Part shown: piece by piece, positions 34,114 to 50,014 of the stretch
Layout of the letters: every line of letters starts with the position of its first letter
Numbering within the stretch: position 1 is the first letter of the stretch
Assembly (NCBI RefSeq): GCF_000379765.1
Contig: NZ_KB903431.1
Span: 186,001 to 250,000 of the forward strand
DNA length: 64,000 nt
Source of the DNA: Flexithrix dorotheae DSM 6795
GTDB lineage: Bacteria; Bacteroidota; Bacteroidia; Cytophagales; Flammeovirgaceae
Reading direction: 5' to 3'
Notes under the pieces: generated by a model
Seen by the model: only the letters and a program-made list of their open reading frames with translations
Told to the model about the DNA's origin: nothing
Database searches by the model: none
Position numbers and translations under genes: made by a program

Positions 34114-36270
34114 CTACTTAAATAAATGATGGTATCTCGCCATCCAGTAGGTTAAAAGAAAGTATGTTCCGGAAACCTCCCGGCTACCGTTTACTCCGCT
34201 ATCGAACTGATAAGGATTGGTATTCCATCTGAATATTCTTGATTCAGGTGTTGGAATTGGATTGTTGGCTTGTCGTTGTCCTCCTCTTCCTACCAAGTCA
34301 TTTTCTACCAGATCCCAACGATGGCTATTGGTCATATTCCAGTCAATCAAATCTAAGGGAAAAAGCTCCAATTCCTCTTTGGCAATTTCAAGGTCACAGT
34401 CTTTCTGAAGGAAAATACTGGCGATTACATTCCAGGTGGGCATTCTGTCGGGTTGGCAAACTCTCCAGGTGCGCTCAATACTTTTTTTGAAATATGGCCA
34501 ATACTGATCGTCTCTGGCATAAGAGGATAAACTGTAATAAGGTAAATAAGTCAGTATGTCATCAGAAAAACCGTTTTCATAAGGGCCATAAATTTTGGCT
34601 TCAACTGTATTTTCTGCGTAATGATGGTTTTCAATTAAATATCGGTAAGTCTCTTCATATTTTTGATCGCCTGTGATGTAAACCGCTACTTTCAGAAAAG
34701 ACAACAATTCCAGCGAATACAATCCTTTTTCATAAGCCCAGTTTTTAGAATGGTTTAGTGAATCAGGTTGCCAAATGCCCCATCTGGTAGGCTTTCCATC
34801 ATAATCGATCAGTTGAAAATCGTTTTCAATGATATGATCCATGATCCGCTTTACCAGAGCTTTTACCCTTTTTTTCATCTCCTTGTCTGCCACCAGGTCA
34901 TAAAATAAAGCTACGGAAAATATTTGACCCACCATTTCGTCTGAACTGCAATCGTCCAGCCATTGCCAGTCTTTGTTGGGTGAAGGTCGCCATTTTTTGG
35001 GATGAGGAGAACGGGATTGCTTAACTAAATCAGTTGACCGGGCAAATGACCTGGCCGGTAAGCCTGAAATTCCTGTTACCGTTTCCAGCCTTTCCACGGC
35101 TTCAAAAGTGCGGATGGCATTTTTTTTCGCCTCTTCCGATTGAGTGACCGCAAAGCGAAAACACGCTGCTGCCAGATAAGTGGATGTCCATAATCCATCA
35201 TTATCCTGATTTTCGGTGCGGCTTGAAGAAAGGTCTCCCGGTACATCAAGATGGGAAAAATTGATTAATCCCAAACGATTATGTCTTTCTGCAATTATTT
35301 TTTCATAATGTGCAGCTTTTTCTTCCAGGTTCATTTCCACCTGTTGAATCTGGCTGATGCCTTCAGGGGTGGCAATCCAGGTGGTGTGTTCATCAATTGG
35401 GAGAATATCATTGATTTTGTCATGAGGTATCCATCTTTTTCCCTGGTAATAATGCCACTTATCATCTTTCTTGGCTACTCCCTTATTTGTGCCAAACCAT
35501 AAAATATCATTATATGATTTTATAGTAGTCACCGGACCATAGGGAAGGCCATGCTTTCCACTCCACATCCAATGGTTGCCATCATTGGCAATACATCCAA
35601 CAGAATAGGGGGCACTAAATATTAAATCATTGGTACCCTTTGGAATATGAAGATCGAAATACCTTTCTTCCGTCCCAATAGCCATTAATATTTTATCCAG
35701 ATTTTGCCATTCTTTTGGAACTCTTTTTAAAAGACCTTTATTTGTGGCCACCCAAAGAATGCCTTCTCGATCCTGGGCAATGGCATTTACTCTTTTTCCA
35801 TTTGTTTCCTTTACTTTTTCCCAGGTTTCATCTTTAAAGGAAAACATCCCATTTGGTGTGCCTGTATGCAGAATTTTTCCCTCCCAGAAAAAACTTAAAA
35901 CAGAATCTCCCTGTACCTGATCGGGCAGGGGAATTTTAAGCGAACCGTCTTCATTTTGTAAAAAACTTTCTGTTAGTAACCAAAGGTTACCATTTGCATC
36001 AATTTCTGCGGACAAATATTTTGTGTTGCCCGTTTTTCCTTTCCATTTTCCTTGCTTGTGTTTGTAAAGTACTTGTGGTGTGACTGCTATAATTTCATCT
36101 TGAAGGCTGAATAATTTTAAAACATTTTGTGCGGCACCTTCAGGCAATTGAATTTCCGTTTTAACTTCCTGAAAAAATGGTTTTAATTTTACAGAAGGGA
36201 GTTGTTGTCCATAGCTCACCAAATAATTAAGTATAAGAAAAAAAGAGAAAAAGTAGCGTTTTATTTTCAT
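34114..36270 (-). CDS. Secreted propeller plus (alpha/alpha) toroid protein, candidate carbohydrate-active enzyme
   Basis: A 718-residue exported protein (signal MKIKRYFFSFFLILNYLVSYGQ). Residues about 30-310 are repeats of the two-component-regulator propeller kind, with GNLWLLTES, GILWVATNKGLLKR, NDILWFGTNKGVAKK and HTTWIATPEG, but no kinase follows. After a helical linker, residues about 330-718 form a helix-rich domain: NDGLWTSTYLAAACFRFAV, GLPARSF, WQWLDDCSSDEMVGQIF, WAYEKGLYSLELLSFLKVAVYITGD and a C-terminal SGVNGSREVSGTYFLLTYWMARYHHLF. That pattern fits an (alpha/alpha) barrel such as is found in many lyases and unsaturated glucuronyl hydrolases. I do not recognise a numbered family. 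It sits between a sulfatase and PafA. Confidence 0.75.
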   Translation of the reverse strand: MKIKRYFFSFFLILNYLVSYGQQLPSVKLKPFFQEVKTEIQLPEGAAQNVLKLFSLQDEIIAVTPQVLYKHKQGKWKGKTGNTKYLSAEIDANGNLWLLTESFLQNEDGSLKIPLPDQVQGDSVLSFFWEGKILHTGTPNGMFSFKDETWEKVKETNGKRVNAIAQDREGILWVATNKGLLKRVPKEWQNLDKILMAIGTEERYFDLHIPKGTNDLIFSAPYSVGCIANDGNHWMWSGKHGLPYGPVTTIKSYNDILWFGTNKGVAKKDDKWHYYQGKRWIPHDKINDILPIDEHTTWIATPEGISQIQQVEMNLEEKAAHYEKIIAERHNRLGLINFSHLDVPGDLSSSRTENQDNDGLWTSTYLAAACFRFAVTQSEEAKKNAIRTFEAVERLETVTGISGLPARSFARSTDLVKQSRSPHPKKWRPSPNKDWQWLDDCSSDEMVGQIFSVALFYDLVADKEMKKRVKALVKRIMDHIIENDFQLIDYDGKPTRWGIWQPDSLNHSKNWAYEKGLYSLELLSFLKVAVYITGDQKYEETYRYLIENHHYAENTVEAKIYGPYENGFSDDILTYLPYYSLSSYARDDQYWPYFKKSIERTWRVCQPDRMPTWNVIASIFLQKDCDLEIAKEELELFPLDLIDWNMTNSHRWDLVENDLVGRGGQRQANNPIPTPESRIFRWNTNPYQFDSGVNGSREVSGTYFLLTYWMARYHHLFK

Positions 36271-36393
36271 GTTAAAAATGGTATACTCTTACAGGGATTT
36301 CTAATTACAATAAATACTCCCTTTCCGGTAATGTGTACCACTAACACGGTTCATATTTTCCAAAAAATACCCTGGAGTCTGTATTTCCGAATG

Positions 36394-37932
36394 TCAATTC
36401 AATGGAAAGGAGACTTTTTCTCCGCTTGACTTATGTATCGGAAATTGGGCGTCTACTTCCTTCAAAAAAGAAGTCAAAACTTCTGCCAGCGCTTTTACTT
36501 TTTCAGGATTGGAGTGTGCTTTGTTATTTAGTTCTCCGATATCATTTTTGAGGTTAAACAATTCGTAATCTTCATTCAGGTGATAATATATCAGTTTCCA
36601 ATCCCCCAGACGCACTGCGCTAAATGCGCCAATTCCCGGTCCTTTAGGCCCCCATTCATTTGGATAATGCCAGAACAAAGGCCTGTCCTGGGTTTGCCCG
36701 GGAGTATTATTGGCGAGTAATGCTGAAAAGCTTTTTCCATCTATGGTTTGAATGGTATTGTATGATTCAACCCCGGCCATTTCCAGGATAGTAGGGTAGA
36801 AGTCTTCAATAATCAGGTAGTTATCGTTTGAGGTATTGGGCGCAACCACACCTGGCCATTTCACTATCATGGGCGTTCTGATTCCCCCTTCGTGAATGGA
36901 CCCCTTTCCACTGGACAGAGGTTTATTGTGTGTATTAGGTTCACCTCCTCTTCCATGTACACTTAATCCACCATTATCCGACATGAACAGAATGATGGTA
37001 TTATCTGCCAGTTTTCGCTCCTCCAAATAGTCTAAAATATCACCTAAACTTTTATCCATACCCTCTACAAGAGCAGCATATTTAGCCTCTGTTTCATCAA
37101 GTCCCATATCCAGGTATTTTTGAAAGAACCTTTTATCTGTTTCAATTGGTGTATGAACTGCATAATGAGACATATACATAAAAAATGGTTTTTTCTTACT
37201 GACTGCACTATCCATGGCACTTTTGGCTTCAATAGTTAATGCTTCACTTAGAAATATATCCTGCCCATGATATTTTTCAAGACCAGGAATGTCCCATACT
37301 TCTGAGCCTCCACGCCATTGAGCACTAAAATTATTTTTACCCAAATAACTCCCTGGTCCACCAGCGGCATGGCCCGCAATGTTTATATCAAACCCAATGG
37401 CTTTTGGGTCTTCTGCAGGTGTATCAATAGCCCCAAAATGTGCTTTACCGGAATGGATAGTGAAGTATCCAGCTTTCTGAAGCATGGCAGGCAATGCATC
37501 AGCATGTACTGCTAAATCCAAAGGTACGGGACTTACTCCATTAACATTCCATCTGGGAAAAGTTAATTCTTTATGGTTGGTTTCCATTGGTTGCAAGGCA
37601 TCTTTATGAAGAGTCCAGTTCGTTACCCGGTGACGTGCTGCGTTCATGCCAGTCATTAAACTGATACGTGTGGGAGAACAAACCGGAGTAGCGTAGGCTT
37701 GTGTGAATTTCATTCCCTTTGCTGCGAGCCTTTCCATATTGGGTGTATGGTACCGGTCATTGAACGGGGTCCTTTTATTCCAAAAAGGCACTGATGTATC
37801 CTGCCAACCCATGTCGTCAACCAGAAATAAAACAATGTTGGGTTTTGATTGAATTTCAGTTTCTGACTGGTTCTCTTCAGAACAACTTTCCAGGAATAAC
37901 AGAACCAGGATTAAAAAAAATAGGTTTTTCAT
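36394..37932 (-). CDS. Formylglycine-dependent sulfatase (S1 family), lipoprotein
   Basis: A 512-residue sulfatase with a lipobox FLESC (C17). IVLFLVDDMGWQD binds metal; the site CSPTR has its formylglycine cysteine at residue 85, followed by ISLMTG. HSGKAHFG replaces the usual GKWHLG: the lysine and histidine remain but the tryptophan is lost, as in one branch of the family. YMSHYAVHTP, FMSDNGGLS and GSIHEGGIRTPM complete it. Large inserts around FPRWNVNGVSP distinguish it from the other four sulfatases here. It opens the leftward run sulfatase / propeller-toroid / PafA. Confidence 0.94.
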   Translation of the reverse strand: MKNLFFLILVLLFLESCSEENQSETEIQSKPNIVLFLVDDMGWQDTSVPFWNKRTPFNDRYHTPNMERLAAKGMKFTQAYATPVCSPTRISLMTGMNAARHRVTNWTLHKDALQPMETNHKELTFPRWNVNGVSPVPLDLAVHADALPAMLQKAGYFTIHSGKAHFGAIDTPAEDPKAIGFDINIAGHAAGGPGSYLGKNNFSAQWRGGSEVWDIPGLEKYHGQDIFLSEALTIEAKSAMDSAVSKKKPFFMYMSHYAVHTPIETDKRFFQKYLDMGLDETEAKYAALVEGMDKSLGDILDYLEERKLADNTIILFMSDNGGLSVHGRGGEPNTHNKPLSSGKGSIHEGGIRTPMIVKWPGVVAPNTSNDNYLIIEDFYPTILEMAGVESYNTIQTIDGKSFSALLANNTPGQTQDRPLFWHYPNEWGPKGPGIGAFSAVRLGDWKLIYYHLNEDYELFNLKNDIGELNNKAHSNPEKVKALAEVLTSFLKEVDAQFPIHKSSGEKVSFPLN

Positions 37933-39034: not shown

Positions 39035-39066
39035 AAAAAGCCGTCAATCCAGATTGACGGCTTTTT
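39035..39066 (-). terminator. Terminator after the cadherin-like repeat gene
   Basis: Perfect 14-bp arms AAAAAGCCGTCAAT (39035-39048) and ATTGACGGCTTTTT (39053-39066) with a CCAG loop. Read leftward it ends in a long U-run 29 bp after the stop of the repeat-protein gene; it would also work rightward for the small secreted-protein gene. Confidence 0.88.
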
Positions 39067-39094: not shown

Positions 39095-41377
39095 TCAATC
39101 ATTTTGGTCTATTAAATTAACCGTAACACTTAACGTTTGTACCTCACCATTTCCCATTGTAATTAGTACCTGACCGGTAATAACTTGTCTTGTTTCGTAA
39201 TCGAATGCCGCAGGATCGCTTACTAGAATAGCACCCCCGTTATTTGGGTTAAAGGTCATCGCTCCAGTTGGGTTTTGAGACAAAAATTCAAAACTTGGAA
39301 AACCTTGTATAGATGGATCGAAATTCTGGATATTAACATAATTTAGGACGGAATACTGACCTTGGTTTTCAGCTACACTAAAATTTATATCCGGAGCAAA
39401 CCATGCATTTTCAGCTACATCATTTACATTAATGGTAAAATCTGAAGATTTAGATACTCCATTGCCATCTGTAACTGTAACAGTACCAGTTATAGTAGGG
39501 TTTGTTTCGTAATCAAATATAGAAGCATCATCTACAAGTAGATTAAACAAGCCGCCAAAAGGAGAAAGCGTTATAGCATTAGGATGTGATAAGTTGCTCA
39601 ATTGGTAGTTCAATGCCCCATCAACACTTTCATCGTAATCCAATAGCATTACTTGAGTTATTAAATCACCTGATTCAGGGTTTTCATCTATTGCACCTGT
39701 GAAAGATTCACTTAATATCCAGTCTGCTTCGAGTACATCATTCAAAGTAATGGTGATAGTCCCTGAGTTTGAGAATCCGTTCGCATCAGTTGCTGTAACT
39801 GTTGCTGTAATCACAGGGTTTGTTTCGTAATCGAAATAAGACGCATCATTCACATATACATAAGTTACTCCAAATTCATTAACCAACTTTAATGCTGCTA
39901 AAGGAGATGCTTCTGAAAGTGCATAAGTAATCATGCCATCACTTACAGGATTATATCCTTGTAAAACTAATTTTCCCAATTCATTTTCGCTTGGGTTTTC
40001 ATCTATAGTTATTTCAAAATCATCGAGGGTCCAACTTGCATTTGTTACTTCATTCAAAGTAATCGTGATATTACCAGTTTGTGTGTATCCATTATCATCA
40101 GAAATTTGAATTTTCGCAGTGATAGTAGGGTTGGTTTCGTAGTCGAATAAAGATGGATCTTTTATAGTCAAGAAAATTTTCTCTGAATGATGAAGTTCTA
40201 TTGCACCCGCAGGCGATTCCTCTATCAATTGCACGGTAAGGTTCTTAGGGTCTTTCTCGTAGTCAAAACCTATTATTTCAATTCGGCCTAAATCGTCTCC
40301 ATCTTCAGGGTTTTCATCAATAGTCAACTCAAAATCGGCAATAGTCCAGGTTGGTTCAATTACATCAGTCAGTGTAATGGTAATAGTTGCAGCGCTTGAG
40401 TATCCATTAGCATCAGTAGCTGTAACAGTTGCAGTGATTGTTGGATTGGTTTCAAAATCGAAAAGTGTAACGTCATTTACATATACATAGGTTACGCCAT
40501 CTTGCTCAACTAATTTCAGTGCACCTTCTGGAGACTCATTTGAAAGAGCATAAGTAAGTGCACCATCCTTTTCAACATCATATCCTTCAAGCACGAGATA
40601 TTCCATTTCATTTGAATTTGGATTTTCAACTAAGGTGTACTCAAAATCTTCAATAGTCCATGCAGCTTCGTGCTTGTCATTTAAGGCAATGCTTACCTCA
40701 GCAGTTTGGCTGTAACCATTACCATTGGAAACTTCAAGAGTTGCTGTAATGGTTGGATTGGTTTCGTAATCGAAAAGGGCAGCATCTTTTACCGCAATAA
40801 TGCTGTCATCAACAATTTGCAGTGCACCATCGGGGCTTTGGTTGCTAAGAGTGTAAGTAAGGGCACCATCAATTGAAGCATCGTAATTTTCCAACCTAAT
40901 CGTGTCGATATTTGTTTCAGTCGGATTTTCATCTATAGAAACTGAAATAGTGGTTACTGTCCATGCAGGCTCATATTCATCGGTTAGGTTAATGGTGATG
41001 GTAGCCGTTTCGGAAACCTCACCAGCAGTGGCTTTAATTTCGGCCGTAAGGACTGGATTGGTTTCGAAATCCAATTGAAAATTTGGATTAAATTTCAGAT
41101 ACTCACCAGAGATACTAATGGCATCAGGTACCGATTGAGAAACAATAGTATAAGTTACATTTGCCTCTGTGCTGTTAGATGTTTCAACACTTAAGTAATC
41201 AGAGATTTTTACCATTTGCTGATTGCTCACATCAAAACTTTCGGGAATGGTAATGCTAAAGTCATTGAAGGTCATGGTGACGGTTACCGGTTCTGGTGTT
41301 TCTTCATCATCCGAACAAGAGAAAAATGAGATTAAAAGAGATAGTAGGATTAAACGTGCAATACTGGTTTTTTTCAT
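39095..41377 (-). CDS. Surface lipoprotein of seven cadherin-like repeats
   Basis: A 760-residue lipoprotein: the signal MKKTSIARLILLSLLISFFSC gives the lipid cysteine C21, followed by an acidic spacer SDDEETPEP. The rest is seven tandem repeats of about 103 residues. A typical unit has W near the start, a DENP motif, GALTYALSNxSPxGALKLV, a V-x-D-x-x-xFDYETNPTITATV block and D-x-NGYS followed by ITITLND. DENP and D-x-NG resemble calcium-binding cadherin motifs. The first repeat is the most divergent. Such proteins are usually adhesive or stalk-like. The promoter and leader are a duplicate of those of the gene at 41709-42299, and the same LytTR system probably controls both. Confidence 0.85.
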   Translation of the reverse strand: MKKTSIARLILLSLLISFFSCSDDEETPEPVTVTMTFNDFSITIPESFDVSNQQMVKISDYLSVETSNSTEANVTYTIVSQSVPDAISISGEYLKFNPNFQLDFETNPVLTAEIKATAGEVSETATITINLTDEYEPAWTVTTISVSIDENPTETNIDTIRLENYDASIDGALTYTLSNQSPDGALQIVDDSIIAVKDAALFDYETNPTITATLEVSNGNGYSQTAEVSIALNDKHEAAWTIEDFEYTLVENPNSNEMEYLVLEGYDVEKDGALTYALSNESPEGALKLVEQDGVTYVYVNDVTLFDFETNPTITATVTATDANGYSSAATITITLTDVIEPTWTIADFELTIDENPEDGDDLGRIEIIGFDYEKDPKNLTVQLIEESPAGAIELHHSEKIFLTIKDPSLFDYETNPTITAKIQISDDNGYTQTGNITITLNEVTNASWTLDDFEITIDENPSENELGKLVLQGYNPVSDGMITYALSEASPLAALKLVNEFGVTYVYVNDASYFDYETNPVITATVTATDANGFSNSGTITITLNDVLEADWILSESFTGAIDENPESGDLITQVMLLDYDESVDGALNYQLSNLSHPNAITLSPFGGLFNLLVDDASIFDYETNPTITGTVTVTDGNGVSKSSDFTINVNDVAENAWFAPDINFSVAENQGQYSVLNYVNIQNFDPSIQGFPSFEFLSQNPTGAMTFNPNNGGAILVSDPAAFDYETRQVITGQVLITMGNGEVQTLSVTVNLIDQND

Positions 41378-41407: not shown

Positions 41408-41415
41408 CAAAAGTA
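41408..41415 (-). promoter_or_regulatory. Promoter -7 box candidate for the cadherin-like gene
   Basis: TACTTTTG on the minus strand matches the Bacteroidota TAnnTTTG consensus, 31 bp upstream of the start codon. The equivalent position in the duplicate (42329-42336) carries TATTTTTG. Confidence 0.6.
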
Positions 41416-41467
41416 TTTAGGAAAGCCACCCCTTGTTGCTAAAATCTTCTGAGTAGTCGGTTTTAGT

Positions 41468-41494
41468 TTCTAAACAAACTGTTTTATTTCTAAA
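41468..41494 (-). promoter_or_regulatory. LytTR-type direct-repeat site, cadherin-like gene
   Basis: Two TTTAGAA boxes on the minus strand (plus-strand TTCTAAA at 41468 and 41488) spaced 20 bp, about 53 bp upstream of the TAnnTTTG box. The same pair occurs upstream of the LRR lipoprotein gene and the sensor kinase gene. Two direct repeats about two helical turns apart fit LytTR-domain binding. Confidence 0.65.
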
Positions 41495-41511
41495 GCGATT
41501 TTTGGAGATGT

Positions 41512-41590
41512 TTACCAAAACACATCCTGAATGACTTTGATAAACTCTTGTTCAAGGAGGAAAGAGATAGTATTACTTTTGAGGTTTATA
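41512..41590 (-). pseudogene. Remnant of a LytTR response-regulator 3' end
   Basis: Read leftward in frame, this stretch ends in EQEFIKVIQDVFW and a stop, identical in the last dozen residues to the intact regulator at 42433-43185, and a diverged continuation (N-x-K and IS at matching spacing) can be followed for about ten more codons before the terminator. It has no start and no other domain, so it is a duplication scar, not a gene. Confidence 0.78.
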
Positions 41591-41597
41591 TATTAAA

Positions 41598-41626
41598 AAA
41601 GCCCCCAAGAGCATACTGGGGGCTTT
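41598..41626 (-). terminator. Terminator after the LRR lipoprotein gene
   Basis: Perfect 10-bp arms AAAGCCCCCA (41598-41607) and TGGGGGCTTT (41617-41626) with a 9-nt loop; read leftward the stem ends in GGGGGCTTTTTTA. It is 83 bp past the stop codon and just before the LytTR remnant, separating the two lipoprotein genes. Confidence 0.85.
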
Positions 41627-41708
41627 GTCTTCATTGTTGATTAAGTTGGGGTAGTTAAAATGCTTGTAAAAACTCCCTTTGTATGGGTTTTTATTTCGGT
41701 TTGTTATT

Positions 41709-42299
41709 TTATTCACAAGAAGTACTGTAGCTTGCATTATCGTCTTTCACCCAACCATCTGCCGGTGCAGACAAAGCATCTACTTTTATGCAATTTAAAG
41801 CTGGATTCCCTTGAAGTTGCATTCTTGTCATGTTCGAATTGTTGCCATTGGCTAAATTTACAGAGGTTAGATTATTTGAATGGGCTTTGAAATCCACTAA
41901 TTGAGTTAAATTAGAAACATCAATACTGGTTAAGTTGTTTGATTCGAGTAGTAGTTGTGTGACTTTTGTATTTTTTGACAGATCTATTGATGTTATTTGG
42001 TTATTAAATAGGCTAATTCTGGTAACATTAGTAAAGTACTCTATTCCTGTAACATCTTGAATTGAACTGTTTTGTGCAGAAATTATTCCTGTAAAGGCTG
42101 AAGCTTCAGATTTAGAAATCTCATCATCTTTATTCGAGTTGATTGCTGGGTCAGCAACCAGGATTTTTTTAAAGTTGTCATCTGGAATACTAATCAGATC
42201 TTCAGCAGCCGGCTCTGGCGTTTCTTCGTCATCCGAACAGGAGAATAATGAGATTAAAAAAGAAAGTAGGATTAAACGTGCAATACTGGTTTTTTTCAT
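41709..42299 (-). CDS. Leucine-rich-repeat surface lipoprotein
   Basis: A 196-residue lipoprotein. I start at the ATG at 42297-42299 because the resulting MKKTSIARLILLSFLISLFSC leader is almost the same as that of the cadherin-like protein; an ATG three codons upstream is possible. After SDDEETPEP come SIPDDNFKKILV, an EF-hand-like NSNKDDEISKSEA and four or five leucine-rich repeats of about 21 residues (VTRISLFNNQITSIDLSKN, VTQLLLESNNLTSIDVSN, LVDFKAHSNNLTSVNL). It ends with two cysteines (NCIKVD and TSCE) that may form a disulfide. LRR lipoproteins of this kind display binding surfaces outside the cell; the ligand is unknown. Confidence 0.85.
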   Translation of the reverse strand: MKKTSIARLILLSFLISLFSCSDDEETPEPAAEDLISIPDDNFKKILVADPAINSNKDDEISKSEASAFTGIISAQNSSIQDVTGIEYFTNVTRISLFNNQITSIDLSKNTKVTQLLLESNNLTSIDVSNLTQLVDFKAHSNNLTSVNLANGNNSNMTRMQLQGNPALNCIKVDALSAPADGWVKDDNASYSTSCE

Positions 42300-42328
42300 G
42301 ATGTGCATTTTTTATTTGGTGAATGCAC

Positions 42329-42336
42329 CAAAAATA
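42329..42336 (-). promoter_or_regulatory. Promoter -7 box candidate for the LRR lipoprotein gene
   Basis: TATTTTTG on the minus strand matches TAnnTTTG, 30 bp upstream of the chosen start codon, and is conserved in the duplicate promoter. Confidence 0.6.
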
Positions 42337-42388
42337 CCCGGGGAACTAACAGCCTGTTTCTAGAATCTTCCGAGTGGCTGGGTTTAGT

Positions 42389-42415
42389 TTCTAAACAAGC
42401 TAATTTACTTCTAAA
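42389..42415 (-). promoter_or_regulatory. LytTR-type direct-repeat site, LRR lipoprotein gene
   Basis: Minus-strand TTTAGAA boxes (plus-strand TTCTAAA at 42389 and 42409), 20 bp apart, 53 bp upstream of the TAnnTTTG box and inside the gap after the regulator gene. Confidence 0.65.
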
Positions 42416-42432
42416 GTGATTTTTGGAAATGT

Positions 42433-43185
42433 TTACCAAAACACATCCTGAATAACTTTGATAAACTCTTGTTTCCGGGATTTAGAAATAGGAACTACTT
42501 TTTTATTTTCCATAACAATAAAGCCCGCATCATTATTCGTGAGTTCTTTAATATATTTGAGGTTTATCACAAAAGACCGGTGGCATTTAAAAAACAAGGA
42601 TTTATTCTCCAGCTGATCGGCAAAGTATTTTAGAGGTTTACTTATTAATTTACTTTCTCCACTTTTCAAATACACTTTTGTATACATGCCATCAGCTTCT
42701 AAAAGTAGTATGTCATCATGGTTTACAAACAAAAATCCGCGAGGCACTTCCAGGGCTATTTTATTCACAGATAATTGCCTGAGGTTTTTTTGCAAACTTA
42801 CCAGACGATTATCCAATTCTTGTTTTCTGAGTGCTTCTTCTGCTTTACGAACTGCTGTTGTAAGTTCTTTATTATCAATGGGTTTTAGTAAATAATCTAT
42901 GGCCGATACCTTAAATGCTTCTATGGCGTATTCATTATAAGCTGTGGTGAAAATGATCTGGAAATCTACCGGAGTCTCAAAGAAATCGAGAATTTGTAAT
43001 CCAAATTGTTCGGGCATTTCGATATCTAAAAATACAATGTCTGGTTTTTCCTGTTTAATTATTTCCACTCCCTGTTTTAAATCAGAAGCTTCCAGAATTG
43101 TATCTATTGAAGTACAATTCTCTTTAATCATTGTTTTTAAAAGACTTCTGGCCTTTTTTTCATCATCTATAATAATTGATCTCAT
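42433..43185 (-). CDS. LytTR-family response regulator
   Basis: A 250-residue regulator. The receiver domain (about 1-120) has IIIDDEKKAR, the phosphoacceptor D54 in DIVFLDIEMPEQFG and a KP at IDYLLKPIDNKEL. The C-terminal LytTR DNA-binding domain (about 148-250) shows ILLLEADGMYTKVYLKSGE, FFKCHRSFVINLKYIKEL and VVPISKSRKQEFIKV. It lies 2 bp after the kinase stop codon and is surely its partner. Predicted targets are the two lipoprotein promoters and its own operon, through the TTTAGAA pairs. Confidence 0.96.
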   Translation of the reverse strand: MRSIIIDDEKKARSLLKTMIKENCTSIDTILEASDLKQGVEIIKQEKPDIVFLDIEMPEQFGLQILDFFETPVDFQIIFTTAYNEYAIEAFKVSAIDYLLKPIDNKELTTAVRKAEEALRKQELDNRLVSLQKNLRQLSVNKIALEVPRGFLFVNHDDILLLEADGMYTKVYLKSGESKLISKPLKYFADQLENKSLFFKCHRSFVINLKYIKELTNNDAGFIVMENKKVVPISKSRKQEFIKVIQDVFW

Positions 43186-43187
43186 GG

Positions 43188-46097
43188 CTAATGTTTTTGT
43201 ATAGGAATACTAATGTGTACTAAAGTTCCCAGGGCTTTATCATTTTCTTTAATATCATGAATTTCCACACTGATTTTGTTGGAGCGATTTAAGTTATACA
43301 AATCAATTCTTTCCTGGTTGGCTTTGGTGGCAAAAGAAGGATGGAAATTGTTTTGGTTTTTAATTCTTTCAGCAGCTTCTCTGCCCACCCCATTATCTTC
43401 TATTTGACACAAAAGCCTGGTTTTGCTATCGCTTAACTCAAACTTTATTTCCAGGCGTCTGTTGTTTTTTTTGTGCAGCAAACCGTGCTTTATGGCATTT
43501 TCCACATAAGGTTGAATAAAGATAGAGGGAACTTTTATTTGCCTTGTATTTACTCCTTCGGCAATTTCTAGATGGTAAATAAGTTCTTCTTCAAATCGAA
43601 TTTTTTCCAGTTCGAGGTACAAAGAAAGTGCTTCCAATTCTGCGGAAAGTGTGACCTCATTTACCTGGCTATGCTGCAAATAAATTCTAATTAATCTGGA
43701 AAACTTAACCAGATAAGAACTCGCCAGATTTTTTTGATTACTTATAATGTATTCTTGTATGGAATTGAGTGCATTAAAAATGAAATGCGGGTTCATTTGA
43801 GACCGCAGGTTTTCGAGTTTAAGGGTAGTAAACTTTTTCTCCTGTACCAGCTTGTCAAACATTCGGTTTTGCTCTTCTTCCTTCTTCTTCATTTTTTTCT
43901 GATAATAAAAATAGAGCGCACCAAAATACACCACAATACACAGTAATGTAAACCACAATTCTTTCCAAAATGGAAGCGGAATGAATAATTCTATTTTCTT
44001 CCCAGGACTCTCGAGCTCGCCATTTGCAGAAATTGTTTTAATTTCAAAAGTGAAATTACCCGCAGGTAAACTATTATACTCTACAGATGAAATGCCGTAA
44101 TCTGTTGTTCTCCACTGGGTATCAAAACCATGTAATTTATATTTAAATTTAAGGTGTTTGGCTGTTTCAAAACTGTTTGCATGAAAGTGAAAAGCAATGG
44201 AATTTTTTTCGTGGGAAAGTTCATATTTATCCTTGAGTTTAGCCTCTGTATTTCCAATAACCAACTTCGTAAAATAAGCCTCAGGAACTTTTCTTCTTTT
44301 GAATAATAAATCGTTGTAAATCGGTAAAGCATATACTTCTTTTCGGGAGCTAAAGATCAATAAACTATCAGAAATAGCTAAACCAGTAATCAGATTTTCC
44401 AGGCCATCCTGCCTGTTAATGGTGGTGATTTTGTTGGTTTCTGTATTGATATATTGCAGGAAACCTTTATAGCTACACCAAAGGTTATTTCCAGCTACTT
44501 CAATATGACTTAAATTGTTGTCTATTAGTCCTCCTTTTGAATTATATTTAATTTCAATACTATCCCCCTGAATTGCGGCTAAACCCATGTGATTTACATT
44601 AGCCCAAATTACGCCATTTTCAGTTTGCTTTAATTTACTAACAAGTATGTTCTCTCCATTAACCGTGAGGGGAGTGGGTTTCCACAAACTATCATATTTG
44701 ACCAATTCATCTATATAACCTAAATACACCTGATTATTTGCAGAATCGCTAAGGACTGAATAAGATCTTTTCTTTTCAAGGGGTTTAATTTCTTCCTTTT
44801 CAGTAAATGCATTTAGATAAACATGTGCCCGGTTGTAGGTGAGGTAAACGATATCGGATTTGGTAATGGCCAGACCCTTCGAAATTGCAAATTTGTTTCC
44901 TGCCTTTTTTAAGGTATTGGTGTTAAAATCGTAGCAAAAACTCAAACTGCCATTCAGACTAATGTATAGTTCATTTCTGGAGGGATTGAAAAATAAATTG
45001 TTTACGGTTTTGAGTTGAGAAAGGACAATTTCCTGAATTTCTTCTGTTTTTGTATTTAAAAAATAAACCTTGCCCTGGGTAGTACCAACTGCTACCAGAT
45101 TGTTACCTATTGCTTCCAGGGAGGCAATATTACCTGTAAGTGGAATGTCTTTATACTTGCCAATTAAAATGTTAGGCATTACAAAAATACCATTATTCAG
45201 TGTGGTAAACCAGTAGTTTTCATCTACATCTTTATAAATATCACTGATAATTTCATTCGCAAGGTAATGGGCATTGCATTGCCAGCTATCCTCATTATTT
45301 TTCTTATAAACAAAAACACCTTTGTTGGTGGCAAACCAAAGTTGCTGATCTATTTCTTTTACCTGTATTATTTTTATGGCATCCAGCTCTTTGAATAAAT
45401 GAGGCTTGAGTGGGGAACCTGAAGTTAAATTGATAAAATGTCTATGCTGGTTTTCCCAATAGGTCAGATAAACATTTTGTTGGTAGGTAAAAAATACGCC
45501 TAAATCATTAATATGCCTGCTGTTAAGTGAATACTGTTTTTTTAAGTTGTAATCCTTGTCTAAAGTATAAATTACCCCTTCCGGTGTCAAAACATATATT
45601 TTATCATTTGTCTTTTGAGTGGCAATTTTGTGTATCTTTTTATAGAATTTTTGGGCTGTGGTTTCTATGTCAAATATTAAAATTCCATCTTCCCAAACCA
45701 CTGCCAAATCGTTTCCCTCAATAAAAATATTTGCCAGGTTACCTTTTAATACTTCATGTAAATCTTTGAAAATGTGGAGAGAATCATTTTGAGCATACAT
45801 AATCTGCCCATAAAGGTTCACGCACCAAACACGGTTGGAGCTATCTGTTGTCAGGTTATATACAGATAAACCTTTTTGTTTTTTTGAATCAATCTTTTTA
45901 AAGTCAGTCCCATTATATTGAAACAAACCACTGTGGGCAGCCAGCCAGAATAAATCATTTTGATCCCTTAAAATATTGTAAAAGTCAACATCTGGCAGCC
46001 CATCTTTTTCATCCATGTTGATGGTTATGGGATGTTGAGCCAATACAACCTGATAGGAAAAGCAGAAAATTAAAAGTTGTTGCCATACAAATCTCAT
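43188..46097 (-). CDS. LytS-type sensor histidine kinase with periplasmic beta-propeller
   Basis: A 969-residue membrane kinase. I start at the ATG at 46095-46097, giving a signal peptide (MRFVWQQLLIFCFSYQVVLAQ); a longer frame to 46154 has no leader. The periplasmic region (about 22-700) is a propeller of the two-component-regulator kind, with repeats like QLWFATNKGVFVYKK, ending in a Y_Y_Y-like domain with FKYKLHGFDTQW. One membrane helix (about 709-730) and a charged coiled coil follow, then the His_kinase domain LENLRSQMNPHFIFNALNSIQ (H771) and an ATPase with PYVENAIKHGL and DNGVGR. This resembles the HTCS sensor but without receiver or AraC domains. It is in an operon with the LytTR regulator. 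Confidence 0.94.
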   Translation of the reverse strand: MRFVWQQLLIFCFSYQVVLAQHPITINMDEKDGLPDVDFYNILRDQNDLFWLAAHSGLFQYNGTDFKKIDSKKQKGLSVYNLTTDSSNRVWCVNLYGQIMYAQNDSLHIFKDLHEVLKGNLANIFIEGNDLAVVWEDGILIFDIETTAQKFYKKIHKIATQKTNDKIYVLTPEGVIYTLDKDYNLKKQYSLNSRHINDLGVFFTYQQNVYLTYWENQHRHFINLTSGSPLKPHLFKELDAIKIIQVKEIDQQLWFATNKGVFVYKKNNEDSWQCNAHYLANEIISDIYKDVDENYWFTTLNNGIFVMPNILIGKYKDIPLTGNIASLEAIGNNLVAVGTTQGKVYFLNTKTEEIQEIVLSQLKTVNNLFFNPSRNELYISLNGSLSFCYDFNTNTLKKAGNKFAISKGLAITKSDIVYLTYNRAHVYLNAFTEKEEIKPLEKKRSYSVLSDSANNQVYLGYIDELVKYDSLWKPTPLTVNGENILVSKLKQTENGVIWANVNHMGLAAIQGDSIEIKYNSKGGLIDNNLSHIEVAGNNLWCSYKGFLQYINTETNKITTINRQDGLENLITGLAISDSLLIFSSRKEVYALPIYNDLLFKRRKVPEAYFTKLVIGNTEAKLKDKYELSHEKNSIAFHFHANSFETAKHLKFKYKLHGFDTQWRTTDYGISSVEYNSLPAGNFTFEIKTISANGELESPGKKIELFIPLPFWKELWFTLLCIVVYFGALYFYYQKKMKKKEEEQNRMFDKLVQEKKFTTLKLENLRSQMNPHFIFNALNSIQEYIISNQKNLASSYLVKFSRLIRIYLQHSQVNEVTLSAELEALSLYLELEKIRFEEELIYHLEIAEGVNTRQIKVPSIFIQPYVENAIKHGLLHKKNNRRLEIKFELSDSKTRLLCQIEDNGVGREAAERIKNQNNFHPSFATKANQERIDLYNLNRSNKISVEIHDIKENDKALGTLVHISIPIQKH

Positions 46098-46101
46098 TGG
46101 C

Positions 46102-46109
46102 CAAAAATA
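46102..46109 (-). promoter_or_regulatory. TAnnTTTG box directly before the kinase start
   Basis: TATTTTTG on the minus strand ends only four bases before the ATG at 46097. If it is the true -7 box the message would be leaderless or start within the first codons; it may be coincidental. Confidence 0.35.
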
Positions 46110-46139
46110 ATGATACCCGTTAATTACCGCTCTAAAATC

Positions 46140-46167
46140 TTCTAAAACCCCCAAGTTTACTTCTAAA
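46140..46167 (-). promoter_or_regulatory. LytTR-type direct-repeat site, kinase-regulator operon
   Basis: Minus-strand TTTAGAA boxes (plus-strand TTCTAAA at 46140 and 46161) spaced 21 bp, upstream of the kinase gene. The surrounding bases also resemble the lipoprotein promoters, including CTAAAATCTTCT. This suggests that the system controls its own expression. Confidence 0.62.
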
Positions 46168-46745: not shown

Positions 46746-48014
46746 TTAGTAAGTGAAATGACTGTAAATTAAGCTTAACTCCTGAAGGACTTTGTTCTTC
46801 GATCCCGCTATTTTCTCCTTTTCAATCAGAATGGATATGGTCTGCTTTTTATAGTTTTCCAATTCATTCGATTCCATATTGGAAGACATTCGGGCAAGGA
46901 CAGGCAATAAATAAGACAAGTCCGGTTCTTGTTTACTGGGGTGTGGCCATGCTTTTCCACTAATTACAGGGGTAAGATAATTGACGGCCAACAACAAGCT
47001 TTTTCCGTTCTCTGATTTATAATGCCACATATCCATTCCCACTTTATCTGCAATAAAGGCAATACTGGTTAGTGCATCCAGATTAAAACAACTGTAAAAA
47101 AAAGATCTGGTACGTTCAATTTCATGTATTTGCCCACCTTGATCATTCAACTGGAAATCAAGACTTTGTTGTGCTAATGTTACCATCTTTCTTACTAAAG
47201 GTTTATTGCCCAGATAAAGTGCAAGTGCGGCCACTTGAAACTTGTACCAGGAACCATGATTGTTGTCAAATTCACTACCCTCTCTTCCCAAATCGCTTTC
47301 GGTTAACCAGGTAAGATACTCTTTTAGCCATTTAGTCAATTCTGAATTATCATCGCTTGTCCAATGGGGAGAATTGGAAAGAAGGTTCATTGCATCAGGA
47401 ATAACCAAAACTATTGACCTGCCATCCAAAATGCCAAATGGCCTGCCTTTGGGATGGCCAGGTATACTCTGGGCAAATTTCAGGTGCGGGTTCATCCGGG
47501 TTTTCTCATCAAGAAACCAGGTTTTTATCATACTGGTTGCTTTTTCGGCATATCGTTCATCCCCGGAAAAATAATAGGCAAGGCTTAGCGTCTTTACACC
47601 ATTGCTCATGGCACTTAGTCTTTTTCTGTCTACAGCATCAGTTTGCGTTTCAGGATTAGTTTCCCCATCTTTTCTCATCCAGGGCAATCCATCAGAAGTT
47701 TTTGGGTTTGGCCACCAATAGCGGCTAATACTCAGATAATCATGTTTATTTTGTGTAGGTGGATAGATGGATTTATCAATCACTGTGGGATTTTTCATGG
47801 AAATAAGTTGGTCTGCATTCCATAAAAGTTTTTTATAGGCTAAAAGGGTATGCTCCGAAGCGGTTTCATCATGAATCATTTGCCTGACGTTGGCCAGATC
47901 TACTGAATCTAACCGAATAAATGGGGCGGAAAATGCCTCCATTCCTAAGAAAATGAGCATAAGGATGAAAGATCCTGTTATTCCGTTTTTTATCATTTCT
48001 CTTATTTTTCGCAT
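46746..48014 (-). CDS. Alginate-lyase-superfamily polysaccharide lyase (PL5/PL38-like), secreted
   Basis: A 422-residue exported protein. The signal peptide probably starts at the second ATG (residue 7, MIKNGITGSFILMLIFLGMEAFSA). The rest is an alpha/alpha toroid of the alginate-lyase Pfam family: DYLSISRYWWPNPKTSDGLPWMRKDGETNP, LSLAYYFSGDERYAEKA, WFLDEKTRMNPHLKFAQ and the catalytic motif NNHGSWY at 251-257 with H253 and Y257. Relatives cleave uronate-containing chains (alginate, glucuronan) by beta-elimination. It is divergent from the PL12-type gene with only 59 bp between starts, so both are probably expressed together on uronic-acid polysaccharide. Confidence 0.88.
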   Translation of the reverse strand: MRKIREMIKNGITGSFILMLIFLGMEAFSAPFIRLDSVDLANVRQMIHDETASEHTLLAYKKLLWNADQLISMKNPTVIDKSIYPPTQNKHDYLSISRYWWPNPKTSDGLPWMRKDGETNPETQTDAVDRKRLSAMSNGVKTLSLAYYFSGDERYAEKATSMIKTWFLDEKTRMNPHLKFAQSIPGHPKGRPFGILDGRSIVLVIPDAMNLLSNSPHWTSDDNSELTKWLKEYLTWLTESDLGREGSEFDNNHGSWYKFQVAALALYLGNKPLVRKMVTLAQQSLDFQLNDQGGQIHEIERTRSFFYSCFNLDALTSIAFIADKVGMDMWHYKSENGKSLLLAVNYLTPVISGKAWPHPSKQEPDLSYLLPVLARMSSNMESNELENYKKQTISILIEKEKIAGSKNKVLQELSLIYSHFTY

Positions 48015-48073
48015 TTTTAAATTTACCTGTATATTAAGGACGAATTACCAAAATGATTAAAAACTTTATTTAA

Positions 48074-50014
48074 ATGAATTTTTTTCTGAAAATTAAGCTA
48101 TTTCTCTCATTAGTTATGCTGGTTTCATGCACTGCTCAGGTTTGGTCCCAGCCCTCAAATACAGATTTAGAAATAAAAACGCTAATAAGCAGACTAGATA
48201 CTAATTCATTAAAACCCATCATTTCAAATCAAAAAAATTTAGCCTCCTGGGCACAAGAACTTCTGGATTTTTACAAAAAACGAAATACAATAAAACATCC
48301 CATCAACATTCAAAAAGACGGAGAGGTTATTTCGGAAAAGGACCAGAAATATGCGAATGATGCCTTAAAGCACATTTTCGTAGGACAACCCGCTTATCCC
48401 TCTCATTTTTGTGGGGAAGATATCAATTGGAATTCAAGGCCTGTACCCGATAATGAATGGGTATGGCAGCTCAATCGTATGTATTTTTGGAATGCTATGG
48501 GGAAAGTGTACAAGGCAACAGGGGATGAACGCTATGCAAAAGAATGGTGCGCCCAGCTGGTAGACTGGACTAAAAAAAATCCTCGGGATCAGGCCCATGC
48601 CTATGCATGGAGATCGATTGAAGCTGGAATAAGGGGGCATAACTGGACCAGCTTGTTTTTTAGATTTATCCAATCTGAAAATTTCACCCAGGAGGTATTG
48701 ATTGCCTTATTGAACAGTTGTTATGAACATGCGGAATATTTAATGACAACTTATAGCTCGGGAAGTAATTGGGCTCTAATGGAAGCAGAAGGACTTGCAT
48801 TTATTGCCTTTACCTTTCCTGAATTTAAAAATTCGGAAAAGTGGAAAAAAGAAGCAATTCGCAGGTTAAGCATTGAAATAAACAACCAGGTAAATTCGGA
48901 TGGTCACCAGAAAGAATTAGCAATGGGGTATCATTTAGGTAGTATCAATTGGTTCTATAGAACCTACGAACTGGCAAGCCTGAATGATGCGGAAAATGCT
49001 TTCCCTGAATCGTACCAAAATACTATAGCGCTCATGTGCGAAGTTCCTATGAAAATTTGTCTGCCTGATGGTACTAATGCCCAGTTTGGCGATTCCTGGG
49101 CAGGAATCCCTGGCCAACATTCGGATAGGTTTATGAAATGGTATGAACTTTTTAAACGGGATGATTTCCTTTTTATGGCTACGGATGGCGAAAAGGGAGA
49201 AAAGCCTGAAAAAACAGCATTTGCTTTAGAAGAGAGTGGAATTTATTCACTTAGAAGCGGGTGGGATAAAAATGCCACTTGTATGGTATTGAAATGTGGT
49301 CCGGATGGTGGTTTTCACTGTCAGCCCGATAATGGCACATTTACCCTTTATGCCGGAGGAAGAACCCTAATGCCTGATGCTGGCTGTTATATTTATCATG
49401 GAGACCCCAAAGAACGTAATTGGTTCCGGCAAACCAGCGTGCACCAGACCTTAACCCTTAATGGAGCAAATATCAAATATGCTCCCCGGCTTTTGAAATG
49501 GAAACCTGGGAATGACCTGGATATACTGGCGGTAGAGAACGCTTCATATGATAACCTGACCCACCATCGTATGGTGTTTTTTGTTGATAAAACTTATTTT
49601 GTAATTGTGGACGAAGCTATTGGAAAAGCTGTCGGAGATGTGGATATTCACTTTCAGCTTGCTCCGGGGGATGCAGTTTTTAATGCAAAGGATTTTTCGG
49701 TTCATTCTCAATATGCAGAAGGGTGGAATGTTTTGGTTCAGTCCATTAAACAAAAGGGGCTTGAATTAAGTGAAGAGGAAGGAAAAGTTTCCTTTGAATA
49801 CACAAAACAGGAGGCCCGGCCAGCCTTTAGGTATAGGTTGAAAAAAACAAAGGAAAACCAAATTACACGGTTTGTAACCGTTGTGGCACCATATCAAAAA
49901 GAAATACCAGATATAAAATTTAAGGTTATAAGCGGTGGCAAAAAAGCTGAGGAGACCTTCCAGGTTCAAGTACAGGTAAATGGTGAAAAAAGAGTTTTGA
50001 ATTGCAATTTTTAA
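48074..50014 (+). CDS. Heparinase II/III-family lyase, PL12 (heparan-sulfate-lyase) type
   Basis: A 646-residue lipoprotein or secreted lyase (signal MNFFLKIKLFLSLVMLVSC, C19). The N-terminal alpha/alpha toroid includes WQLNRMYFWNAMGKVYKATGDERYA, SNWALMEAEGLAF and NSDGHQKELAMGYHLGSINWFYRTY (catalytic Tyr and Asn candidates). The C-terminal beta-sandwich has GGFHCQPDNGTFTLYAGGRTLMPDAG, RNWFRQTSVHQTLTLNG and a long tail, closely following PL12 heparinase III (EC 4.2.2.8 type) sequences as I recall them. It cuts heparan-like or other glucuronate-containing chains by beta-elimination. Divergent from the alginate-lyase-fold gene. Confidence 0.88.
   Translation: MNFFLKIKLFLSLVMLVSCTAQVWSQPSNTDLEIKTLISRLDTNSLKPIISNQKNLASWAQELLDFYKKRNTIKHPINIQKDGEVISEKDQKYANDALKHIFVGQPAYPSHFCGEDINWNSRPVPDNEWVWQLNRMYFWNAMGKVYKATGDERYAKEWCAQLVDWTKKNPRDQAHAYAWRSIEAGIRGHNWTSLFFRFIQSENFTQEVLIALLNSCYEHAEYLMTTYSSGSNWALMEAEGLAFIAFTFPEFKNSEKWKKEAIRRLSIEINNQVNSDGHQKELAMGYHLGSINWFYRTYELASLNDAENAFPESYQNTIALMCEVPMKICLPDGTNAQFGDSWAGIPGQHSDRFMKWYELFKRDDFLFMATDGEKGEKPEKTAFALEESGIYSLRSGWDKNATCMVLKCGPDGGFHCQPDNGTFTLYAGGRTLMPDAGCYIYHGDPKERNWFRQTSVHQTLTLNGANIKYAPRLLKWKPGNDLDILAVENASYDNLTHHRMVFFVDKTYFVIVDEAIGKAVGDVDIHFQLAPGDAVFNAKDFSVHSQYAEGWNVLVQSIKQKGLELSEEEGKVSFEYTKQEARPAFRYRLKKTKENQITRFVTVVAPYQKEIPDIKFKVISGGKKAEETFQVQVQVNGEKRVLNCNF

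Follow-up and report, generated by a model that had tools for sequence, protein, structure and literature searches.

Predicted LytTR operators with a 21-bp register at a propeller kinase-regulator operon and two lipoprotein genes of Flexithrix dorotheae

A sensor kinase-response regulator operon and two lipoprotein genes lie on the minus strand of a 64,000-nucleotide stretch of the Flexithrix dorotheae DSM 6795 genome (contig NZ_KB903431.1, positions 186,001 to 250,000; hereafter the window, with all coordinates counted from its first letter), and the repeated TTTAGAA boxes in front of these transcription units are predicted operators of the LytTR-type regulator encoded in the operon. The genome holding the window (G000) has a size of 9.5 Mb. 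The sensor histidine kinase (969 aa, 43188-46097) combines a signal-peptide-like start, a Reg_prop-type propeller, a Y_Y_Y domain, a hydrophobic segment and a LytS-type His_kinase domain (PF06580); the His_kinase and Y_Y_Y domains were found by domain search. Its start was taken to be the ATG at 46097 (MRFVWQQ), chosen for the signal-peptide-like sequence and the -7 box. The response regulator (250 aa, 42433-43185) consists of a receiver domain (PF00072, E 6e-22) and a LytTR DNA-binding domain (PF04397, E 1e-17), both exceeding the gathering score, and its motif FFKCHRS follows the FhRhHRS motif of LytTR DNA-binding domains (PMC4227749) with K replacing R. An initial sequence-only reading of this DNA had named a propeller kinase and a LytTR regulator. 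ORF and domain analysis of the window revealed no further gene in the operon.

Downstream lie the genes for a leucine-rich repeat (LRR) lipoprotein (196 aa, 41709-42299) and a cadherin-repeat lipoprotein (760 aa, 39095-41377), both on the minus strand. Each carries CSDDEE after the lipobox, an acidic signal following the lipid-bearing cysteine that resembles the surface-export signals SDDDD and SDDFE of Bacteroidota lipoproteins (PMC5080379). Judged by this export-signal-like sequence only, both lipoproteins are probable surface proteins.

All three transcription units are preceded by minus-strand box arrays. In front of the cadherin lipoprotein gene (41447-41494), TTTAGAA at 41488-41494 (-91) and 41468-41474 (-71) is followed by CTCAGAA at 41447-41453 (-50) and by the -7 box TACTTTTG (41408-41415); the predicted transcription start is 41403, 26 nt before the ATG. 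The array of the LRR lipoprotein gene (42368-42415) shows the same arrangement at -91, -71 and -50, with TTTAGAA at 42409-42415 and 42389-42395, CTCGGAA at 42368-42374, the -7 box TATTTTTG at 42329-42336 and a predicted start at 42324. At the kinase-regulator operon (46140-46167), two boxes, TTTAGAA at 46161-46167 (-70) and 46140-46146 (-49), precede the -7 box TATTTTTG (46102-46109), and transcription is predicted to begin at the first base of the ATG at 46097. The kinase mRNA may therefore be leaderless, a class that makes up 5.5% of mRNAs in F. psychrophilum (PMC9723704).

Aligned on the -7 box, the two kinase boxes are equivalent to boxes 2 and 3 of the lipoprotein promoters, both of which possess the third box. 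The full element is TTYAGAA-N14-TTYAGAA-N34/35-TTTG, in which TTTG closes the -7 box of Bacteroidota (TAnnTTTG, at -12 to -5; PMC9723704), and the distance from box 2 to TTTG in the window is 42, 42 and 41 nt. A TTTG at -33 is absent from all three promoters, as would fit activator-dependent promoters. The sequence-only reading had located the TTTAGAA pairs exactly (41468-41494, 42389-42415 and 46140-46167; start distances 20, 20 and 21), but its pairing was out of register, and neither box 3 of the lipoprotein promoters nor the -7 element was recognised. The neighbouring CTAAAATCTTCT that it named besides the boxes does not form an element of its own: on the minus strand it reads AGAAGATTTTAG, which is identical with box 2 of the kinase promoter, and at the lipoprotein genes it is the third box (CTCAGAA or CTCGGAA).

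In promoter and signal peptide alike, the two lipoprotein genes are duplicates of one another (184 nt at 80% and 91 nt at 92% identity). The segment 41369-41552 on the minus strand is an 80% identical copy of 42290-42473, and its positions 41512-41552 match the 3'-terminal 41 nt of the regulator gene (42433-42473). Because this remnant of the regulator 3' end was kept, the cadherin promoter must have been copied from the regulator-LRR junction. In agreement with the sequence-only reading, the kinase promoter is not included in the 184-nt duplication. Few genomes of the order encode relatives of the kinase sensor part (6 of 390 at E 1e-40, G000 included). In the nearest relative (G002, same family, other genus; kinase 49% and regulator 74% identical), a single 939-aa fused lipoprotein holds both the LRR and the cadherin parts, and its gene directly precedes the kinase-regulator operon. 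Over 163 aa, the LRR protein of the window shares 71% identity with the C-terminus of this fused lipoprotein, and the cadherin protein is 45-55% identical to its repeats. Since G002 carries both parts in one gene beside the operon, the two window genes seem to correspond to the two components of a single surface protein, both equipped with a promoter copy. As a side observation, the kinase -7 box of the window sits 4 nt before the ATG, and the G002 kinase, though without boxes, keeps TATTTTTG just before its own ATG.

The pair and not the single box stands out statistically. With spacers of N11-16, three pairs were found in the window versus a mean of 0.04 in 100 shuffles, whereas single TTTAGAA occurs at chance level (28 versus 25.4 expected). 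When the 21-bp register and the downstream TTTG were required, the whole genome gave eight matches versus none in the control, namely the three promoters and five sites inside open reading frames of 157-534 codons. This pattern had been relaxed after the window boxes were known, and the independent test is therefore a sequence-only model, R1, built from 20 flavobacterial promoters (set A2). The members of A2 were picked for in-register box pairs, with TACAGAA as second box and TTTA for TTTG allowed, so that R1 is independent only for sequences outside A2. In the window, R1 ranked the cadherin promoter first, the kinase promoter second and the LRR promoter fourth (a partial match covering boxes 1-2); the third-ranked site (48051-48098, 15% GC, model positions 18-65) was set aside as AT-rich and has neither box 1 nor TTTG. 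In the 9.5-Mb genome, the cadherin promoter was again first (E 0.0116) and the kinase promoter second (E 0.0134) of 81 matches at E<=10. In a scripted check of the 30 best genome matches, only these two combined the box pair with TTTG.

Scanning genome contigs with the two kinases yielded 79 loci. Full-length kinase matches at 32-36% identity came from the Flavobacteriaceae loci L080-L094 and L097, with L080 (Algicola sp.) counted as flavobacterial. The flavobacterial kinase-regulator operons are often followed, after ~100 bp, by a gene for a large secreted protein. Among nine of these proteins examined, six carry a type IX secretion system (T9SS) sorting tail, some with LRR, InlB-like, laminin-G (sub-cut-off) or FN3 parts; the protein at L149 combines cadherin with DUF285. 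A motif-free repeat test upstream of the kinase operons and of the next gene placed 21 at the top of 38 spacings: repeats at this distance occurred in 20/31 upstream regions of L080-L097 versus 5-13 at other spacings, and in 61/121 overall, the next spacing reaching 48. The box form TTYAGMA, generalised after inspection of the aligned boxes, was paired at 21 bp in 9/31 target promoters of 17 flavobacterial loci versus 0-2 at each of 37 other spacings, in 6/80 non-target upstream regions of the same loci and in 0/90 target promoters of the other loci (L095, L096, L098-L148 and L150-L158, a few of which, e.g. L117, also belong to Flavobacteriales). Of 19 upstream regions with a pair, 14 have TTTG at 41 or 42 nt after box 2. 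The site is present before the window kinase and, with TACAGAA allowed as second box, before seven flavobacterial kinase operons.

Two further observations were made at these loci. Other kinase-LytTR operons (L118, L121, L139, L143, L151, L096, L100) show other words repeated at 21 bp, e.g. GCTTTTCGCA, CTGCCACCT and CACTTAT, which are possibly operators of further LytTR groups. Similar small secreted proteins with FFEALEANGENAVYEGF-like starts are encoded beside several systems (L092:11976-12986, L093:5889-6227, L093:16353-17258, L066:1656-2663, L086:3060-4103); the genes at L092 and L093:5889 carry boxes, and the L092 protein gave no Pfam or NCBIfam match.

The relaxed pattern gave 33 matches versus two for the reversed control in 17 genomes that include the training loci. 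Of its 25 flavobacterial matches, 16 are followed 18-39 nt after TTTG by an ATG-started frame, coding mostly for secreted proteins and in two cases for kinases, and three others fall inside open frames; this check comprised 30 loci, with L211 and L221 giving no output. Co-occurrence with the kinase was determined with the strict pattern in 149 genomes from the same family as G400, the Winogradskyella metagenome-assembled genome that holds L091. Here, 31 matches were distributed over 22 genomes, and relatives of the kinase sensor part were present in 14 genomes. Matches occurred in 11/14 genomes with the kinase relative versus 11/135 of the others (Fisher 1.5e-8), or in 9/12 versus 11/135 (4e-7) without the two training genomes. 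For 15 of the 31 matches, a kinase match was no more than 6 kb away, where 0.014 would be expected; in 11 of these 15, the distance to the propeller match was 1.7-1.8 kb, a position that immediately follows the regulator gene in L231 and L232, the two stretches inspected.

Three match-bearing stretches without an adjoining propeller kinase (from G467, G480 and G489) have boxes beside a TPR-type kinase of ~625 aa. In G467 a propeller kinase is encoded on a different contig; G480 and G489 encode none at E 1e-30. The box pairs point at the kinase genes in L229 and L230, and in L228 the pair beside the kinase points away. A close relative of the regulator (relatedness being judged by phmmer scores) is encoded in L228 and L230 (E 4e-79 and 2e-78), and further boxes lie at a lipoprotein gene (L228) and a secreted-protein gene (L230); the L229 stretch ends short of where a regulator could appear. 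From these gene neighbourhoods, the element seems to go with the regulator and not with the type of sensor. In L093 (W. undariae), two related regulators are encoded on one 19-kb stretch. The genes after the first carry TTTAGAA/TTCAGAA, and the gene immediately following the second has ACCATTCA twice, with close variants in front of two later genes, each at 21 bp. The box word is tied to the regulator, because the two L093 regulators go with different 21-bp words. No clean rule connecting box variants to LytTR residues emerged, as FYKPHRS regulators go with both TTCAGMA and CATTCA/GTTCAT words.

The DNA itself shows that the element exists, keeps its register, is conserved and is linked to relatives of the kinase and regulator. 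Its assignment to a LytTR regulon draws on the 21-bp register, the fixed distance to the -7 box, the held-out recovery of two of the three promoters and the co-occurrence with the kinase. A number of results weigh against this assignment. Within the window, the two lipoprotein promoters, being duplicates, count only once. The longest form of the kinase ORF is open upstream to a TTG at 46154, and the kinase boxes are therefore intergenic only if the ATG at 46097 is the start. The genome-wide search that had been proposed for the box pair, clearly above shuffles in the window, was not selective in its loose form across the genome (15 matches versus 11 for the reversed control), and the loose pattern was rejected as a marker. 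The LRR promoter did not appear in the genome-wide R1 list, for which 150 of 23,636 candidates were scored. G002 gave no match to the pattern. Its kinase promoter lacks boxes, a weak in-register TTCGGGG not being counted, and its three-box lipoprotein site has four mismatches in 21 box letters (equalled in 20 of 200 shuffles; R1 score 9.8 bits); this site was too weak alone to serve as independent proof and was kept as consistent geometry only.

The comparative data likewise contain contrary results. The exact pair at 21 bp is missing from 22/31 flavobacterial target promoters. Repeats in the remaining upstream regions of the scanned loci also peak at 21 (43/86 and 124/331), a peak for which additional surface-protein genes preceded by TTYAGAA pairs account only in part. 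The pattern matched 23 times in 57 relatives of G000 versus eight times for the control, so that single matches mean little. The control gave seven matches in the 149 genomes, any match is absent from 3/14 kinase-bearing genomes, and a match does occur in 11 genomes lacking such a kinase. G052 and G153 (loci L159 and L160) yielded no regulator relative in 18 kb around the kinase. The kinase relatives at L159 and L160 are ~32-34% identical.

With these points included, we assign a probability of roughly 0.8 to an autoregulated LytTR two-component circuit in which the boxes are the predicted sites of the regulator encoded at 42433-43185 and drive the neighbouring lipoprotein genes. A periplasmic signal would act on the propeller kinase, which would then phosphorylate the regulator. 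Dimers of the regulator would occupy the TTYAGAA boxes, which with their 21-bp spacing share one face of the DNA and have their centres near -47 and -68, immediately upstream of the usual place of a -33 element; from there they would recruit RNA polymerase to TAnnTTTG promoters that have no -33 element. Predicted targets are the kinase-regulator operon itself (two boxes, giving positive feedback) and the two lipoprotein genes (three boxes each). Binding, dimer formation, dependence on phosphorylation and activation rather than repression are inferred here; activation by the phosphorylated regulator is suggested by the geometry that the window element shares with streptococcal LytTR and AgrA sites. 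Of the autoregulated surface-sensing system proposed in the sequence-only reading, the LytTR regulon, the autoregulation and the lipoprotein output have good in silico support, whereas the surface sensing is unsupported.

The most serious alternative, which we consider unlikely, is that the regulator binds the boxes as a repressor or in its unphosphorylated form, in which case the signal would switch the surface proteins off. AgrA indeed represses bsaA, from a site downstream of the promoter (PMC4227749). The boxes considered here lie upstream of the promoter (~-50 and -70), the -33 TTTG is missing so that an activator seems needed, and HdrR activates its own operon from a similar geometry (PMC6193735).

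Considerably less probable is control of these genes by a different transcription factor that owns the boxes. The absence of boxes at the G002 kinase would agree with it, and TTTAGAA does not match what we take to be the classical LytTR consensus. Against such a factor stand the co-occurrence of matches with kinase relatives, 11/15 nearby ones being at 1.7-1.8 kb, and the different 21-bp words of the two L093 regulators. Direct repeats of ~21-bp period are moreover a hallmark of LytTR regulators, with repeat sequences that diverge at constant spacing (PMC6193735). That the similarity merely reflects recent duplication (the lipoprotein promoters are 80% identical copies over 184 nt) or base composition (the loose pair is near background genome-wide) is very improbable, given that the kinase promoter lies outside the duplicated segment, that R1, derived from a different order, places the cadherin promoter first and the kinase promoter second in the 9.5-Mb genome, and that 33 pattern matches stand against 2 of the reversed control in 17 genomes.

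The surroundings of the predicted LytTR circuit comprise two terminator-like hairpins on the minus strand, 3' of the LRR lipoprotein gene (41598-41626, 11 pairs) and 3' of the cadherin lipoprotein gene (39035-39066, 14 pairs); both come from a consensus scan only, which returned seven such sites in the region versus 5.2 in shuffles. Polysaccharide-related genes flank the system (34114-37932 and 46746-50014) and code for a Reg_prop protein, a sulfatase, an alginate lyase and a heparinase II/III-like protein. The genome pattern scan gave no match of the full box and TTTG pattern before these flanking genes.

Bacteroidota are rich in LytTR two-component systems and very rich in adhesin-like surface proteins. 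On balance, we favour the view that a group of related LytTR regulators of this phylum forms a self-contained, portable cassette of sensor, regulator and surface protein, in which the DNA element is nearly constant between Cytophagales and Flavobacteriaceae while sensor and displayed protein are freely exchanged. The exchanged parts would be a propeller or TPR sensor and, as displayed protein, a cadherin/LRR lipoprotein or a T9SS-exported LRR, InlB-like, laminin-G or FN3 protein. If true, a search for the element could locate surface-adhesin systems, together with their sensors, throughout the phylum. With a conserved operator of exact geometry that is open to experimental test, a formerly anonymous kinase-regulator pair becomes a predicted regulon, and the surface proteins switched by a given sensor become easier to identify.

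LytTR regulation of this kind is already known from AgrA and the streptococcal systems, and by its domains and site geometry the window system is a LytTR two-component system: the element is a direct-repeat site of ~21-bp period upstream of the core promoter, as is characteristic of LytTR regulators. Among the matches listed, the titles and abstract openings of the open LytTR literature contained no binding motif of Bacteroidota LytTR regulators and no cis motif that would connect such systems with adhesin-like surface proteins. BtsR/YpdB-type systems resemble the window in pairing a LytS-type kinase with a LytTR regulator, and the best match of the regulator is the NCBIfam BtsR model (141 bits, below its 246-bit cut-off); sensor and targets are different. 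Hybrid two-component systems of Bacteroides share the propeller and Y_Y_Y sensor, and kinase residues 520-711 match 3v9f (named hybrid sensor kinase/regulator) and residues 622-711 match 3ott. Assignment to this class was rejected, because the window regulator is separate from the kinase and of LytTR instead of AraC type, not part of one polypeptide. The agr sensor detects a peptide, whereas the window sensor is of the propeller type. A report on a Riemerella two-component system (PMC5399024) was set aside, as it concerns OmpR-type proteins.

The S. aureus regulator AgrA resembles the window regulator in its receiver-LytTR architecture and in acting through two direct repeats at suboptimal core promoters (agr P2/P3); the box is different, and the window has a third box at the lipoprotein genes (PMC4227749). 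AgrA repeats are centred near -60 (PMC4227749), and the proximal pair of the window element near -57. In streptococcal LytTR systems, the direct repeats are mostly 12 bp apart (11-13) and close upstream of -35, and autoregulation is positive (PMC6193735). The S. mutans systems HdrRM and BrsRM share with the window, as known from its sequence, a LytTR protein, direct repeats just upstream of -35 and (predicted for the window) positive autoregulation (PMC6193735). Their partner is a membrane protein with an inhibitory role (PMC6193735), whereas the window has a histidine kinase and a receiver domain, and classification as an HdrRM-type LytTR regulatory system was rejected since the window regulator is paired with this kinase and not with a dedicated inhibitory membrane protein. 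The box sequence also differs from those of the S. mutans LytTR systems, and the outputs of the window system are probable surface proteins (PMC6193735 for S. mutans).

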